This document shows positions 13,007-19,759 of a stretch of 64,000 nt of DNA, in pieces. Source of the DNA: Bacilli bacterium (lineage in GTDB: Bacteria; Bacillota_I; Bacilli_A; RF39; UBA660); contig JAFXXB010000012.1 of NCBI GenBank assembly GCA_017542465.1, positions 1 to 64,000 of the forward strand. The letters are read 5' to 3'. The translations under genes were made by a program, and so were the position numbers. The number at the start of each line of letters is the position of its first letter. The stretch's first letter is position 1. The notes beneath the pieces are model-generated. The model searched no databases. It saw only the letters and a list, made by a program, of their open reading frames with translations, and was not told where the DNA came from.

Positions 13007-13036
13007 TTATTATGTATAAGAATAGGGATGATATAT

Positions 13037-14701
13037 ATGGGATTTCAAGAAGTTGTATCAAAAGCTGAATATCCATTAGATGTAGATTTTGTTAAAAGAA
13101 TAATAAAAGCTATTATGGATTCTAATGAAGCAGATAACTCAAGCTTATCAGCTGTAATATCTAATCATAGAAATAATAAGAGAGCATCTAAAGAAGATAT
13201 TGATAATTTTAGATATGCTATAGAAAGTATAGTAAGTATGGCTATTCTTAAAAATGATAAAGAAAAAGCTATAGAATTATCTGGAGCTAATGATGATGTA
13301 TTAATTAATGTAGTATCAGGAATGATTAAAAAGAATAGCCCTGAATATACGGCTTTAGTTAATTTAAAGAGTAAAGCTTATGCTTTAGTTGGCTATAAGA
13401 AAGATGATAAGAGAAAATATATAACTTTAAACTCATCAGTGTTATTCCCAAATAATGCAAACTTAAATGATAATGATCCTTTAGAACATTTATTTGTTGT
13501 TAATGCTCCTCAAGATAAATATGTTTCTATTCTTAAAGAATTATTTAATGAATTTATTAAAAATAATATACCTGTAAACTTTAGTGTTAGAGATATAACA
13601 GACATGGTATATGGATTTGCTGATCCAATTAAAATATATGTATCTACTAAATATATAGAACAAGCAGCAAATATCATTTATAATGTTATGAAAGATAAAA
13701 AACTACCTAAAGATTATCAACCTAATGATTTATTATATTTAAATATGAATGGATTATTTGGATATACAACTGTTGATAAAGCTGGTAGAACACCTATGGA
13801 TGTTATCTTAAATAAGATGGAAAGATCTATTAATACTAAAATACTTGCAAGTACATCTGATTGGACAGTTAGACAAAGAGTTATTAAAGATTATTATAAT
13901 AATAGAAATAGATCGAATAGATATACAGATTTAATTAATACTATAGTAAATGGAATAGATTTTGTTCCTTTATATTCTGATTCATCTAATTTTGATGAAG
14001 ACGAAATAAGTAAAGAGAATAGATATATTTTCCCTGGTATATTCCCTAGAGAAGAGGAAGTACAAGAAGAAGTAGATTTACCTGAAATGCATTTAGGTTA
14101 TTCAAAATCAAAAGAAGATACTATTGATCCTGAATTAATAGATGAACCTATTAATGATGTCAGTTATATAGGTGATGAACCCCAAGAAGAAATAAAGGAA
14201 GAGCCTAAACAAGAGGAAGAAGAACCTACTTTAGATAACACTGGAGTATACACTGAAGATAATATTAAGGTAGATAAATTATCTGATGAAGAAGCTTATT
14301 CAATTGTGTTTAATGAACCAACTAAAATGGTCCCTTTATATGCTGAAGAATATAAAGATATATCATTAGATTTAGGTGAATACAAATCTGTAATTGAAAG
14401 AGGTATTCAAGATATTTGTCCAGTTACTGTTGATTCAGATGGTAGATATACAGAACTTATTAAATATTTAAAAGCTCAAAAAGTATCTGAATTATTTGAT
14501 AAAGATATTATTCTTAAAGATGGTAAGAGAATATCAGGAAGAGAATATGCAAAAAGTATTGTAATTCCTCAATTCTTATCAAATACAGTAAATGAGATTC
14601 ATACACTTGAAGAACTTAATAAGACATATGTAGATGAGATAGTTGAAAAAGAAAATACAAATGGTAATTTCTTATCTAAAATATTTAAAAAAAGTAAGTA
14701 A
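13037..14701 (+). CDS. large unknown cytosolic protein with acidic middle segment
   Basis: 554 residues. Three parts are visible: an N-terminal alpha/beta region of about 310 residues (with KRKYITLNSSVLFP and LFVVNAPQDKYVSILKELFN), an acidic Glu/Asp/Pro-rich linker (about 330-410), and a C-terminal domain of about 130 residues. It ends in a basic tail, FLSKIFKKSK. There is no signal peptide or membrane span. I do not recognise a family. The chosen ATG follows GGGATGAT; the ATG inside that motif was rejected. Its terminator encodes the last residues. Confidence 0.7.
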   Translation: MGFQEVVSKAEYPLDVDFVKRIIKAIMDSNEADNSSLSAVISNHRNNKRASKEDIDNFRYAIESIVSMAILKNDKEKAIELSGANDDVLINVVSGMIKKNSPEYTALVNLKSKAYALVGYKKDDKRKYITLNSSVLFPNNANLNDNDPLEHLFVVNAPQDKYVSILKELFNEFIKNNIPVNFSVRDITDMVYGFADPIKIYVSTKYIEQAANIIYNVMKDKKLPKDYQPNDLLYLNMNGLFGYTTVDKAGRTPMDVILNKMERSINTKILASTSDWTVRQRVIKDYYNNRNRSNRYTDLINTIVNGIDFVPLYSDSSNFDEDEISKENRYIFPGIFPREEEVQEEVDLPEMHLGYSKSKEDTIDPELIDEPINDVSYIGDEPQEEIKEEPKQEEEEPTLDNTGVYTEDNIKVDKLSDEEAYSIVFNEPTKMVPLYAEEYKDISLDLGEYKSVIERGIQDICPVTVDSDGRYTELIKYLKAQKVSELFDKDIILKDGKRISGREYAKSIVIPQFLSNTVNEIHTLEELNKTYVDEIVEKENTNGNFLSKIFKKSK

Positions 14702-14759: not shown

Positions 14760-14796
14760 TATTCTATATAAGGTAGAAAAGATAGGGAGGATGCAT

Positions 14797-15669
14797 ATGG
14801 CTAAAAAAGTAGGAAAAATAGCAAAGGAAAAAAAGCCTTTTGATAAGACATATATTCCTTTAACATTTGCATTTATTATTCTTGCATTATTGGTTGGAGC
14901 TTTAGTATATACTATTATTCAAAAACCTAAAGATAAACCAGCAATGAACGAAACTAATACATTACAAATAGAAGAAGTAGTTGTAGATAATAAGAATTCA
15001 ACTATTTGTACTAACGACGAAATAAAGAGATTGACTGAAGAAGCAAAAAAGATTACAGCCAAATATGAAGAAATAGATGATTTTTATTATGGTGAAGGTG
15101 TAGATTTAAATTCTGAAGATGGTCATGCAGTTCCTATCTATGGATATGCTTTACGAATGACTCTCGAAAATATATCAGATGATTTTTCTGTTATTATAAA
15201 TAACTCAGTTGATGATAAACAAATGGTTTATACATCATTTGAAAATGGTTATATCCAATGGGATGAAGGAGATACTTTCTTCATTAGAACATATTTCGTT
15301 GATATATATTCTAATACAGACTCATGCAATGGAGTTAAAATCAGATCATTTGATTTTGCGGTTCCAAAATGGAATGAAATATCTAAGTTTGATATATGTC
15401 GTTTAGATAACTGGAAAGACAAAGAAATATGTAAACATTTCACATACGATGAAAGAAGTCTTGCTGAAAAGCAATCTGATACTCATGATGAAGCGATAAA
15501 AGAAGGTAAAAAACTTTATAAGGAAAAAGAACAAGAGAATGAAAATGTTATTATTAAAACATTAAAGAATAGAACGTTTATAATTATAGCAATTATTGTT
15601 GGAATAATAGTGGTTGGAGTAATAATAGTATTACTAGTAATGAAGGGAAGAAAAAATAATGAAAAATAG
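14797..15669 (+). CDS. bitopic membrane protein with extracellular Cys-containing domain; partner of the giant secreted protein
   Basis: 290 residues. A basic cytosolic N-terminus (MAKKVGKIAKEKKPF) leads into a first membrane span (about 22-44). Then comes an extracellular domain of about 200 residues with five Cys and a beta-rich core (GYALRMTLENISDDFSVIIN), a charged helix, a second span (about 259-283) and a short basic tail. The topology places both ends inside and the domain outside. The family is unknown. SD GGGAGG precedes the ATG at 14797; an ATG six bases upstream overlaps the site. Its 3' end overlaps the next gene by 11 bases, which implies coupled synthesis and probably a shared function at the cell surface. 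Confidence 0.7.
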   Translation: MAKKVGKIAKEKKPFDKTYIPLTFAFIILALLVGALVYTIIQKPKDKPAMNETNTLQIEEVVVDNKNSTICTNDEIKRLTEEAKKITAKYEEIDDFYYGEGVDLNSEDGHAVPIYGYALRMTLENISDDFSVIINNSVDDKQMVYTSFENGYIQWDEGDTFFIRTYFVDIYSNTDSCNGVKIRSFDFAVPKWNEISKFDICRLDNWKDKEICKHFTYDERSLAEKQSDTHDEAIKEGKKLYKEKEQENENVIIKTLKNRTFIIIAIIVGIIVVGVIIVLLVMKGRKNNEK

Positions 15670-18600
15670 ATTATATATTCTAATTATTATTTTGCTATTA
15701 ACTCCTATTGTTACTTTTGCAAGAAGTGCGTCAAATATTACTTTGGGTGATTCATTTAAAGGTAGTATTAGTGTAGGAAGTGGTTATTCTCCTAATTATT
15801 CACCTTTAACATTTACATATGTAACACATCAAATGTCATTTGAAAGTGAAGATAAATCAAAGGCAGGACAAGCTTTCTGCGTATATCCTGGTTTATCGGC
15901 TCAAAATGTTAATGAAGTTTATTGTAGCCCAATAATTCCTAGAGAATGGCCTCAAGTATATTATGTTACTTATAATTATTGGGATACATTAAAAAATGAT
16001 AGGGATTTAGCTGACTTTGTAATGAGAACAGCTGGTGTTTTTGATAGAGCACATATGAGAAATGTTCAAAATTGGTATTTTTGTAATGGAGACGATGGCT
16101 GTATTAAGGAGTTGCAAAAACAACAAGAAGCAGATAAACAAAGTAGTACTGCAAATCTAGAAAATAATATTGTTGAAGGTGCTTTTATTGCTTCGCATCA
16201 AGTATTGGTTCAAGGGCCACCTTATACAATGAATGATGGTATATTTAGGGATAAAAATGGTGGAAGTACCGTTCAACGTGGTGTTCCTATATTAAAAGAA
16301 GCTTGGGATGCAAGAAGTCAGACTGAAAACTGGTCTATTCCAGATTATGTAACGTCAACTGCTCAAGGAGATATGGGGAGTGCAATTAAAGGTGCTAATT
16401 TTACTTTATCTCCTTCAGCAGTTCAATCTAATACTCCTAAAGTAGCTTATTATGATATTACATCAAATGACGGACTTAATGTTGGTGACATTTGTGTAAA
16501 AGCTATAAATGGTAATGCTAGTGTAGATTATTGGGATGGAGTCAATGGTCGAATTATGGTAACCGCTGATGCTAATTGTAAATCTAAAGTAAGAATTACA
16601 AGAGGGACTTGTTCTTCAGGAAGTGGTGGAACTCCAGTTACTCCTAGACCATATACTTGCCCAAATAATACAAAGAAATGTAAGAAAACTGTTCCAACAT
16701 ATAAGACTGTACAAGAATGTAATGGGACTTGGAGAAAGTATAATTCTAGCTGTCAATCATCAAAGGATTCATATTGCCCAACATATTGTGATGGTGAATT
16801 AGTTAATAATCAAGTCGAAAGTGGTTCAAAGACAATTTATAACTGTATTGGACAAAATATGTCTTGTAGTGTAGGTGGAACTGGATGGACAGAGGCCGCC
16901 TCAAATGAAGATAAAGAATTCGACCTATCTAGTAATTATGCAACAGAACCAAATGAATTAAACTTTGAAGGTTATAAAGGCGAATATAACGATGATATCG
17001 AAAATGGAATTGTTAAAACAGTTCAAACAACTGACACAAGAAATGATTTACAATTATATTGGTGTGAGATTGGTGGTCAAAATGCACAAAGTTATATTGT
17101 TGTAGTTGATGGCGGCTCAAGAGATGACGATTTTGTATTAAAAGTTAATTGTGATAATTGTTGTGATACTGTTGAACACTCTAGTGTTGTTGATGTATCA
17201 AATATTCATAATTGTTGTGAAGATGGTGTTGAATCATTTGCTAAACAAGCAGCCTTAGATGAATTATTCTGTACAGATCCTACTTTAAAGGTTGATGGAT
17301 TTAAAGCAAAGTGTAATACAGATGATTATAGAGATGGTGCAGATATTAATACATATTGTAAACAATATTGTAGTGAAACAATAGTATATAAGATACCTCC
17401 TCCAACAAGAGCAAAGGCTGATGCTTATTTCTGGTTTGCAAAAAATAATATTAATGTAGATACAAATGAACCTACTTTGAGTGATTCATTTACAGGTCCT
17501 ATATTCCAAAAATATAAGAGATGTAGAACTTTGATATCTTATGATAAATTTAATTCTGATTATAAAACAATAGCTACAGGTATAAATAATGCATATACTA
17601 ACTATCAAGAGAAAATGGCATATGTTAAATTATGGGAAAAATTAAGAGATAAGGCAACTGATAGCGCCGCTACGGCTTCGTCTGATGCAAAAACAACATT
17701 GAGTGATGTTGGTATTTCATGTTCTTATACCATTGAAACTTCTTATAGAACATGGCATTCTAAATGGGAGGGAACTTATTCCTGTCCAACTGCAACAAAT
17801 CCTCGTAAAACATGTGATTGTAGTTTAACTACGAATCCAGGAGCACATGCTGGATGTAGCGATAATGGTGAATGGAAAAGAGACGGAAATGGTTCAAAAT
17901 CATTCTCTAAAGAATCTACTGTAAGTGGAGATACGGTTAGAGTTTATAATGAATCAACCGAGGTAAATAATTATAAATTTAAATCTTATGGAACTAATGA
18001 AGGTGATTGGTCACCTAAGCTTATTAATAAGGATAATAAACTAAATGTAAGTAGATATGCATACAATTCTTCGGATATTGATAATTTCAAGAAGAAAGTT
18101 GATAATGCAAAAAGTGATTTGGCAACAGAAACCAAAAATGCAATGAATGATGAAACTTGGTGTGAAGGTGATTCATGTATAATTAAAAAAAGAATATTTA
18201 ATGATGAATGTTCTGGTTCTGTTCCTGCATATGATACTGAAGATCCTAGTAATAGAATATCTAGACTATATGGTGAAGCTGATAATGCAAAAGCATTGTA
18301 TAGTTCGTATGTTAATCAATTGAAAGATATTCAAATTAAACATGATGATTGTGGTGGAGCATTTAGTAATGGAACAGTTAATACTGAAACAATAAGAAAT
18401 AGAATATCATTTAATCAAGAACCTGATATGACATTCCATTATTATCAAGAATATATGGATGATGAAACTAAACAAATTAATGGACAATTAATTGAGGTAC
18501 CATTCTATCCTTCTGATATAAATGGTAATAAATATACTGGTGCTGATAATAAACATTGTATTTATGAAACTAAAACAGGTGCTTCATTCGACGATCCTGA

Positions 18601-19759
18601 TTGGTCTAGATGGGATGTTACAGGTTACCAAGATAATCATTATTCAAAAGCTGATTGGGACCCAAATGATCCAAGGAAAAATAATATAAATCTTAAATTT
18701 ATTGATATGTATAATTACAGTACAGATCAATTGACATATGAAACATTAAACGCATCATTTACTGGTAGTGCTCCTAGATACAGAGCTGATAAGAAATACA
18801 CTACGGATGCTGTAAAACGAATGACATGTAGATGGTCGGACGACAAGACAACAAAAACTTATAATTTGATTCCAAATGGTTTGGTTGTTAAGGATTATTC
18901 CATTACTACGGATGATATAAAGAATCTTGGAAGAAGTTATATTGGTCGTACGGGAACATATACAGCTATGAAGACAGTGCGTGTAGGTAGAATGGAAGTA
19001 TACTATACATTGAAAAATATAGGTGATCCATTTGAAGATTTAATTCAACAAGCTGCTCCTTCGTGTTCTGATAGATATGATTTAGCTATTGATGGGGAAC
19101 CTACTAATCTAACTTGTTATATTGAAGTAGAAGATAATGGCTGGACTATTTATGATTGTCCACCAGGATGTCCATCAGAATGTTGCAATACTGGAACTAA
19201 GACATGTGGCGTTGGTGGTAATTGTACTGATGAGTGTTCTTGTGTGGTTCAAAAACAATTATTGGAATATAAGGAAGTTGATGCAGCAAATTTATTCCCA
19301 AATAAAGAATCTGAACAATACAAAGATAACGATGGATATGCATGGAACTGGTATAAAGGACCTAATGGTCAAGAAGTTATGAAGAGAATAACTGATGATG
19401 CCAAAACAGATAAAACATATTCTAAAAACAATATTACATATTCGTTTACATTAAAACCATCTGATATTAGAGCAATTAGAGCATACAACAAAGCAATGAT
19501 TAAGGCTGGTGGATATGGAAGCTTCGATATGGATTGTGGATCTGAAGCTAATAAGGAATATGCTTATGGTGAGACTGTTAAACCGGTTTCAAAATGTAAA
19601 TCTAAGTTTATAACTGCTATATCTGGTGGTGACGAATTAAATTATGGAACAGGAAGACTTAAACTAAATACAAATAATATGGATTTACTAGAAGTCAGAA
19701 GAAAATGGAAAGTATATGAATATGACGATAATGGAAAATTAAAGAACAGTGGTGCATAA
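15659..19759 (+). CDS. giant Cys-rich secreted protein, possible thioester-domain adhesin
   Basis: 1366 residues. A signal peptide (about 1-22, with a hydrophobic LYILIIILLLTPIVTFA core) is followed by an extracellular protein with about 49 Cys, many in short CxC or CC clusters (for example residues near 1155-1195). The N-terminal domain has AFCVYPGL (C74) and GAFIASHQVLVQ (Q181). These are spaced like the Cys and Gln that form the internal thioester of Gram-positive thioester-domain adhesins; the thioester is an inference. No LPxTG motif, sortase tail or C-terminal membrane span is present, so it is either released or held by a partner. Codons such as TCG, ACG, GCG and CGT are more frequent than in neighbouring genes. 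The start overlaps the partner gene. Confidence 0.72.
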   Translation: MKNRLYILIIILLLTPIVTFARSASNITLGDSFKGSISVGSGYSPNYSPLTFTYVTHQMSFESEDKSKAGQAFCVYPGLSAQNVNEVYCSPIIPREWPQVYYVTYNYWDTLKNDRDLADFVMRTAGVFDRAHMRNVQNWYFCNGDDGCIKELQKQQEADKQSSTANLENNIVEGAFIASHQVLVQGPPYTMNDGIFRDKNGGSTVQRGVPILKEAWDARSQTENWSIPDYVTSTAQGDMGSAIKGANFTLSPSAVQSNTPKVAYYDITSNDGLNVGDICVKAINGNASVDYWDGVNGRIMVTADANCKSKVRITRGTCSSGSGGTPVTPRPYTCPNNTKKCKKTVPTYKTVQECNGTWRKYNSSCQSSKDSYCPTYCDGELVNNQVESGSKTIYNCIGQNMSCSVGGTGWTEAASNEDKEFDLSSNYATEPNELNFEGYKGEYNDDIENGIVKTVQTTDTRNDLQLYWCEIGGQNAQSYIVVVDGGSRDDDFVLKVNCDNCCDTVEHSSVVDVSNIHNCCEDGVESFAKQAALDELFCTDPTLKVDGFKAKCNTDDYRDGADINTYCKQYCSETIVYKIPPPTRAKADAYFWFAKNNINVDTNEPTLSDSFTGPIFQKYKRCRTLISYDKFNSDYKTIATGINNAYTNYQEKMAYVKLWEKLRDKATDSAATASSDAKTTLSDVGISCSYTIETSYRTWHSKWEGTYSCPTATNPRKTCDCSLTTNPGAHAGCSDNGEWKRDGNGSKSFSKESTVSGDTVRVYNESTEVNNYKFKSYGTNEGDWSPKLINKDNKLNVSRYAYNSSDIDNFKKKVDNAKSDLATETKNAMNDETWCEGDSCIIKKRIFNDECSGSVPAYDTEDPSNRISRLYGEADNAKALYSSYVNQLKDIQIKHDDCGGAFSNGTVNTETIRNRISFNQEPDMTFHYYQEYMDDETKQINGQLIEVPFYPSDINGNKYTGADNKHCIYETKTGASFDDPDWSRWDVTGYQDNHYSKADWDPNDPRKNNINLKFIDMYNYSTDQLTYETLNASFTGSAPRYRADKKYTTDAVKRMTCRWSDDKTTKTYNLIPNGLVVKDYSITTDDIKNLGRSYIGRTGTYTAMKTVRVGRMEVYYTLKNIGDPFEDLIQQAAPSCSDRYDLAIDGEPTNLTCYIEVEDNGWTIYDCPPGCPSECCNTGTKTCGVGGNCTDECSCVVQKQLLEYKEVDAANLFPNKESEQYKDNDGYAWNWYKGPNGQEVMKRITDDAKTDKTYSKNNITYSFTLKPSDIRAIRAYNKAMIKAGGYGSFDMDCGSEANKEYAYGETVKPVSKCKSKFITAISGGDELNYGTGRLKLNTNNMDLLEVRRKWKVYEYDDNGKLKNSGA

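Follow-up and report, generated by a model that had tools for sequence, protein, structure and literature searches.

The two-gene system described here is probably a relocated paralogue of a cassette that normally heads a Tad/Flp pilus operon, with its large secreted product serving as an exchangeable surface component linked to the pilus. The pair lies within the window, i.e. the whole stretch of 64,000 nt that was analysed, and consists of a membrane partner (M) and a Cys-rich giant (G). Searches of Pfam, NCBIfam and PHROGs with M and G gave no convincing match; PHROGs returned no match to the pair, so a phage origin is not indicated. The features of the pair are as follows.

14791..15669, + strand: membrane partner M, 292 aa (ORF, hydropathy, family alignment and HMM)
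14839..14928, + strand: first transmembrane span of M, residues 17-46 (hydropathy)
15547..15657, + strand: C-terminal transmembrane span of M, residues 253-289 (hydropathy)
15643..15650, + strand: AAGGGAAG, probable ribosome-binding site of G, within the final codons of M (sequence)
15659..15669, + strand: overlap of the M stop and G start, 11 nt (ORF coordinates)
15659..19759, + strand: giant G, 1366 aa, Cys-rich and secreted (ORF, hydropathy, homologues)
15659..15724, + strand: Sec signal peptide of G, residues 1 to about 22 (sequence, hydropathy; putative cleavage site)
15725..16678, + strand: variable head of G, about residues 23-340 (alignments, paralogue identities)
17036..19708, + strand: conserved core of G, residues 460-1350 (alignments and profiles of relatives)

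Both ORFs and the 11-base overlap named in the original prediction were confirmed, with the M ORF starting at 14791; the earlier start at 14797 is the second ATG. An 11 nt overlap between M and G recurs in both tandem paralogues of genome G004. The ATG of G is located 10 nt 3′ of the AGGGA in its probable ribosome-binding site, and we infer translational coupling of the two genes. The codons for the basic tail at the C terminus of M (KGRKNNEK, 15640-15669) double as the ribosome-binding site of G, and the recurrent KGR(R)K tails of M proteins may result from tail codons that also form this site.

No DUF5411 or Tad gene adjoins the window pair. Upstream on the same strand (13028-14701) is a 557 aa protein without a Pfam, NCBIfam or PHROGs match, and the gene directly downstream of G resembles a PlsC acyltransferase. 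The pair had been described as unlike its neighbours in codon use; however, its KL divergence of 0.054 per codon falls within the range of the neighbours (0.026-0.138), and its mean codon log-likelihood of -0.773 is low, yet further genes of the window reach similar values (-0.784, -0.765). Total GC alone stands out (32.4 %, the highest among the genes compared), and given that GC3 is normal, amino-acid composition accounts for it. Codon use thus gives no support to a foreign origin.

G contains 49 Cys, matching the earlier estimate, and 22 of them recur in 11 or more of the 13 relatives compared, most of these 22 being in the core. The sole hydrophobic stretch found by hydropathy is the N-terminal signal (residues 1-27), confirming the signal peptide; no C-terminal membrane segment is apparent by the same measure, and no LPxTG-like motif was found in either M or G. 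The claim that G is not anchored by sortase is thus upheld, there being neither a sorting signal nor a C-terminal anchor. The genome of the window has four sortase matches. G also lacks a prepilin leader and an N-terminal pilin helix, having an ordinary Sec signal peptide instead, and judged by its sequence is not itself a pilin.

The head of G is composed of a CxxPG...C motif and an Arg helix, followed by a probable beta-sandwich. Identity between paralogues is 20-30 % in the head and 37-46 % in the core; for paralogues of one genome the figures are 20-27 % (head), 40-46 % (core) and 47-56 % (C terminus). Orthologue pairs share 43-58 % in the head. Head types among the giants include CxxPG, NlpC/P60 (L023_8758, L027) and a third type with GxRxTxVDxNG, the last of these, like the NlpC/P60-like head of L082_4289, being assigned by eye. 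By these comparisons, the core is conserved and the head is exchanged among giants of the family. AlphaFold gave low-confidence models for both the head (pLDDT 44.6) and a 1031 aa stalk (42.5). Foldseek with the low-confidence head model returned mostly Ig-like folds, the best at a weak E of 0.03, and PDB sequence searches with two profiles gave no convincing match.

The window's genome (G000) is a MAG of 1.09 Mb and 87 % completeness, and the genomes compared with it are mostly fragmented MAGs in which apparent losses may be assembly gaps. It contains a second giant, on contig C30, which is 47 % identical to G over the best segment and is followed by DUF5411. Giant homologues were found by single-sequence search in 9 of 60 relative genomes. 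Within the window genus the cassette is ordered as one or more M-like proteins, the giant and DUF5411; it occurs twice in tandem in G004, and two to three giants per genome are present in G006, G009 and G008. In other genera of the family the M-G-DUF5411 order runs on into CpaB-TadA-TadB-TadC-Flp-TadE. A profile of the genus core matches 13 giants of other genera in the local protein set (best 1e-22), mostly over the same core regions and nearly all in Tad operons. The M profile in turn picks up the genes immediately preceding Tad-operon giants, at 1e-9 to 1e-38. These profiles confirm that both G and M are homologous to proteins heading the Tad operons of other genera.

DUF5411 is located directly downstream of 30 of the 38 giants collected; since many loci were fetched via DUF5411, which biases this adjacency, the fairer figure is 9 of 14, from loci fetched via the giant itself. 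In 19 of the 38, a Tad core gene is no more than 2.1 kb away. Of 37 family genomes, 35 have DUF5411, and the remaining two are also without a TadA-class ATPase match; in G028 DUF5411 is present with no TadA-class match among the matches listed, possibly owing to an assembly gap. In the core tree the window giant groups with the C30 giant from the same genome (support 88/86), and the two G004 giants group likewise, so duplication has been repeated within lineages. The window pair is best described as a lineage-specific paralogue of a Tad-linked two-gene cassette, without a DUF5411 neighbour.

M had been predicted to be bitopic. Hydropathy instead gives two hydrophobic spans and hence a double-pass topology with the ectodomain between the spans, so the extracellular Cys-containing domain is retained from that prediction and the single span is not. 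The layout is an N-terminal span, the Cys-containing ectodomain, a C-terminal span and a basic tail. M has two spans in the window genus, whereas M homologues of other genera have a signal peptide and one span. For most giants of the family the gene immediately 5′ is an M homologue; the pair is conserved and dedicated, and an anchor or assembly role for M is the simplest reading. Co-occurrence of the two genes is usual rather than universal: at one locus (L092:10474-11857, G032:C10) an M homologue adjoins DUF5411 with no giant between, the sole clear case seen of a partner without a giant.

The window's own genome encodes a TadA-type ATPase, TadB and TadC platform proteins and two CpaB-like genes on contig C22, of which only one CpaB-like gene is above the Pfam cut-off, and TadB and TadC are assigned by similarity to a reference operon and by position, not by a Pfam or NCBIfam match. 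A Flp major pilin, two TadE-like minor pilins and a prepilin peptidase are also encoded (G000:C22:99357-100690, C2:50906-51250). On these assignments the Tad/Flp (type IVc) pilus gene set is complete in this genome. Directly 3′ of TadC is a gene for a 1916 aa surface protein with Listeria-Bacteroides repeats and DUF6273 (L075:1419-7166, G000:C22).

DUF5411 proteins start with MKESxWG, near the MKEATG of Flp and the MRESIG of TadE, and this resemblance of leaders suggests that DUF5411 is a minor pilin. Several fusions are apparent. DUF5411 is joined to a 44-Cys giant, which differs from G in its domains, in G015 (L065:4295-7813, contig C2), to a D-Ala-D-Ala peptidase (M15) by Pfam match in G022 (L077:7051-8574), and to an M15 domain assigned by eye in G017 (L080:6949-8649). 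That DUF5411 and G act at the same place is hinted at most strongly by these fusions, and those with M15 would attach a peptidoglycan enzyme to what is probably a minor pilin. DUF5411, still of unknown function in Pfam, gains a functional context from the cassettes of this family.

From these sequence relationships we infer a pilus function for the pair, and a mechanism can be proposed. In the family, the M and G cassette usually stands at the head of the Tad/Flp operon, just 5′ of DUF5411, and M and G would be translated in coupled fashion. G would be exported by Sec and its signal peptide removed, after which disulfides would lock it into an extended stalk. The C-terminal core of G may then dock on M and on DUF5411, leaving the variable head displayed on or beside the pilus, where it could bind a target or process it. 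The window copy would contribute a further, alternative head in trans. For uncultured gut Bacilli, the combination of a conserved core and exchangeable heads beside pilus genes gives a testable account of how a monoderm Tad pilus recognizes its targets.

As the window copy is without an adjoining DUF5411 or Tad gene, it could also have left pilus function, with M anchoring G as a stand-alone surface protein. Three other giants (L023_1317, L027, L028) are likewise without an immediately adjacent DUF5411, and the two spans of M in the window genus, compared with a signal peptide and one span elsewhere, would be in keeping with such an anchor. However, the docking core of G has been kept and the genome has all of the Tad set, which would allow action in trans; in addition, several cassettes are located near one DUF5411 cluster in G006 and G004. 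Departure of the duplicated pair from the pilus is thus considered rather unlikely, and display by the pilus is preferred.

A second alternative is that the heads act on peptidoglycan, either remodelling the cell's own wall to let the pilus through or antagonizing neighbours on contact. The NlpC/P60 heads of L023_8758 and L027 and the fusion of DUF5411 to peptidase M15 are consistent with this, and Myxococcus Tad pili with interchangeable tips kill prey (PMC12075869). The window head, however, has no hydrolase signature, which limits such activity to some family members at most and makes this an improbable account of the window pair.

The original prediction gave G a different role, in which an internal thioester between C74 and Q181 would bond to host proteins and M could stand in for sortase as the anchor. 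The residues concerned are the following.

15878..15880, + strand: C74 of the CxxPG motif, in AFCVYPGL (invariant in 12/12 genus heads)
15923..15925, + strand: C89, probable disulfide partner of C74 (invariant in 12/12 genus heads; disulfide expected)
16199..16201, + strand: Q181, in ASHQVL, the proposed thioester Gln (not conserved)

Known thioester domains (TEDs) require a Cys and a Gln, and all those described carry a TQxxPhiW helix; their Cys motif is [YFL]C-hydrophobic-hydrophilic (PMC6194298). FCVY at C74 fits the F-C-V of this motif, with a Tyr that is not clearly hydrophilic at the last position. AFCVYPG does resemble the TED Cys motif; Q181 lacks conservation among relatives. Alignment of 12 genus heads shows C74, P77, C89 and R123 to be invariant and no Gln column above 3/12. 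Because C74 is accompanied by C89 in every head, a disulfide is expected in place of a lone reactive Cys. The TQxxPhiW pattern is absent from G. PF08341, which had been suggested for a search of the N-domain, gave no match to G at E<=1, although the model finds two TED proteins above cut-off in the same genome; it works here, and still misses G. These two proteins (L106:2220-3659, G000 C28; L107:1910-4160, C36) have VPNTN/VPSTG-type sorting signals and each has an adjoining sortase.

Some heads are nearer to TEDs than those of the window genus. The heads of G011 (L078) and G020 (L093) carry AQxxPhiW, and those of L078 and L087 are without a second Cys shortly after the motif Cys. In profile comparisons the genus heads match those of other genera at 78 % probability and the latter match genuine TEDs at 50 %, with controls below 1 %; compared directly with TEDs, the genus heads reach 2.9 %. 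Through these weak links a TED ancestry of the G head is conceivable, and the N-domain may have descended from a TED-like domain. Conservation, the PF08341 search and the motif search argue against an active thioester in G, and the covalent adhesin reading, now highly improbable, was discarded. A CxxPG motif alone is insufficient to call a thioester adhesin.

With the thioester set aside, pilus display of G can be compared with known systems. The nearest precedent, by analogy, would be the Tips of the Myxococcus xanthus Kil Tad pilus, which are KilL/KilM/KilN minor-pilin complexes (PMC12075869). Like the G cassettes, these are interchangeable, disulfide-rich and Tad-linked complexes of which a genome has several, some encoded apart from the pilus genes, and their distal domains are variable. 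KilN is a pilin, however, whereas G has a Sec signal peptide, no prepilin leader and a transmembrane protein as its partner; the hosts of G are monoderm gut Bacilli, unlike the Kil host, and a tip location for G is hypothetical.

DUF5411 has already been predicted beside Tad-type genes in Clostridia, in a DUF5411/CpaF/GspF operon of Roseburia, Ruminococcus and Eubacterium (Miller et al. 2022, PMC9523054). This operon is like the G loci in that DUF5411 adjoins a Tad-type ATPase and platform protein together with a further surface protein. The surface protein there, however, is internalin B-like, and the hosts belong to another class; neither a Cys-rich giant with exchangeable heads nor M is described in the part of that report available. 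Class I/II TIE adhesins (PF08341; PMC6194298, PMC4450167) and G both have, close to the N terminus, a Cys in a [YFL]C-hydrophobic motif. In contrast to them, G is not matched by PF08341, lacks TQxxPhiW, a conserved Gln and a sortase signal, shows no detected isopeptide-domain stalk, and has its Cys in a conserved pair. Large adhesive modules on a Gram-positive type IV pilus, as proposed for G, are also known from PilB/PilC of Streptococcus sanguinis (PMC6916266); their module is fused to a pilin, whereas G is a separate secreted protein.

In its most far-reaching form, the model would have the tip or collar of a monoderm Tad pilus formed by a separate giant, Sec-secreted and welded by disulfides, in place of a modular pilin. 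Its heads would be swappable, and multiple relocated cassettes would let one machine carry different ones. The heads, presented by M, would comprise a TED-derived binding head whose thioester was lost, NlpC/P60 hydrolases and others. This version is tentative and, as a whole, on the doubtful side. Small membrane proteins (TM138 genes; L024:2389-2802 and relatives) are also found at the ends of Tad operons, and resemble type IV secretion pilins (PF18895, below cut-off).
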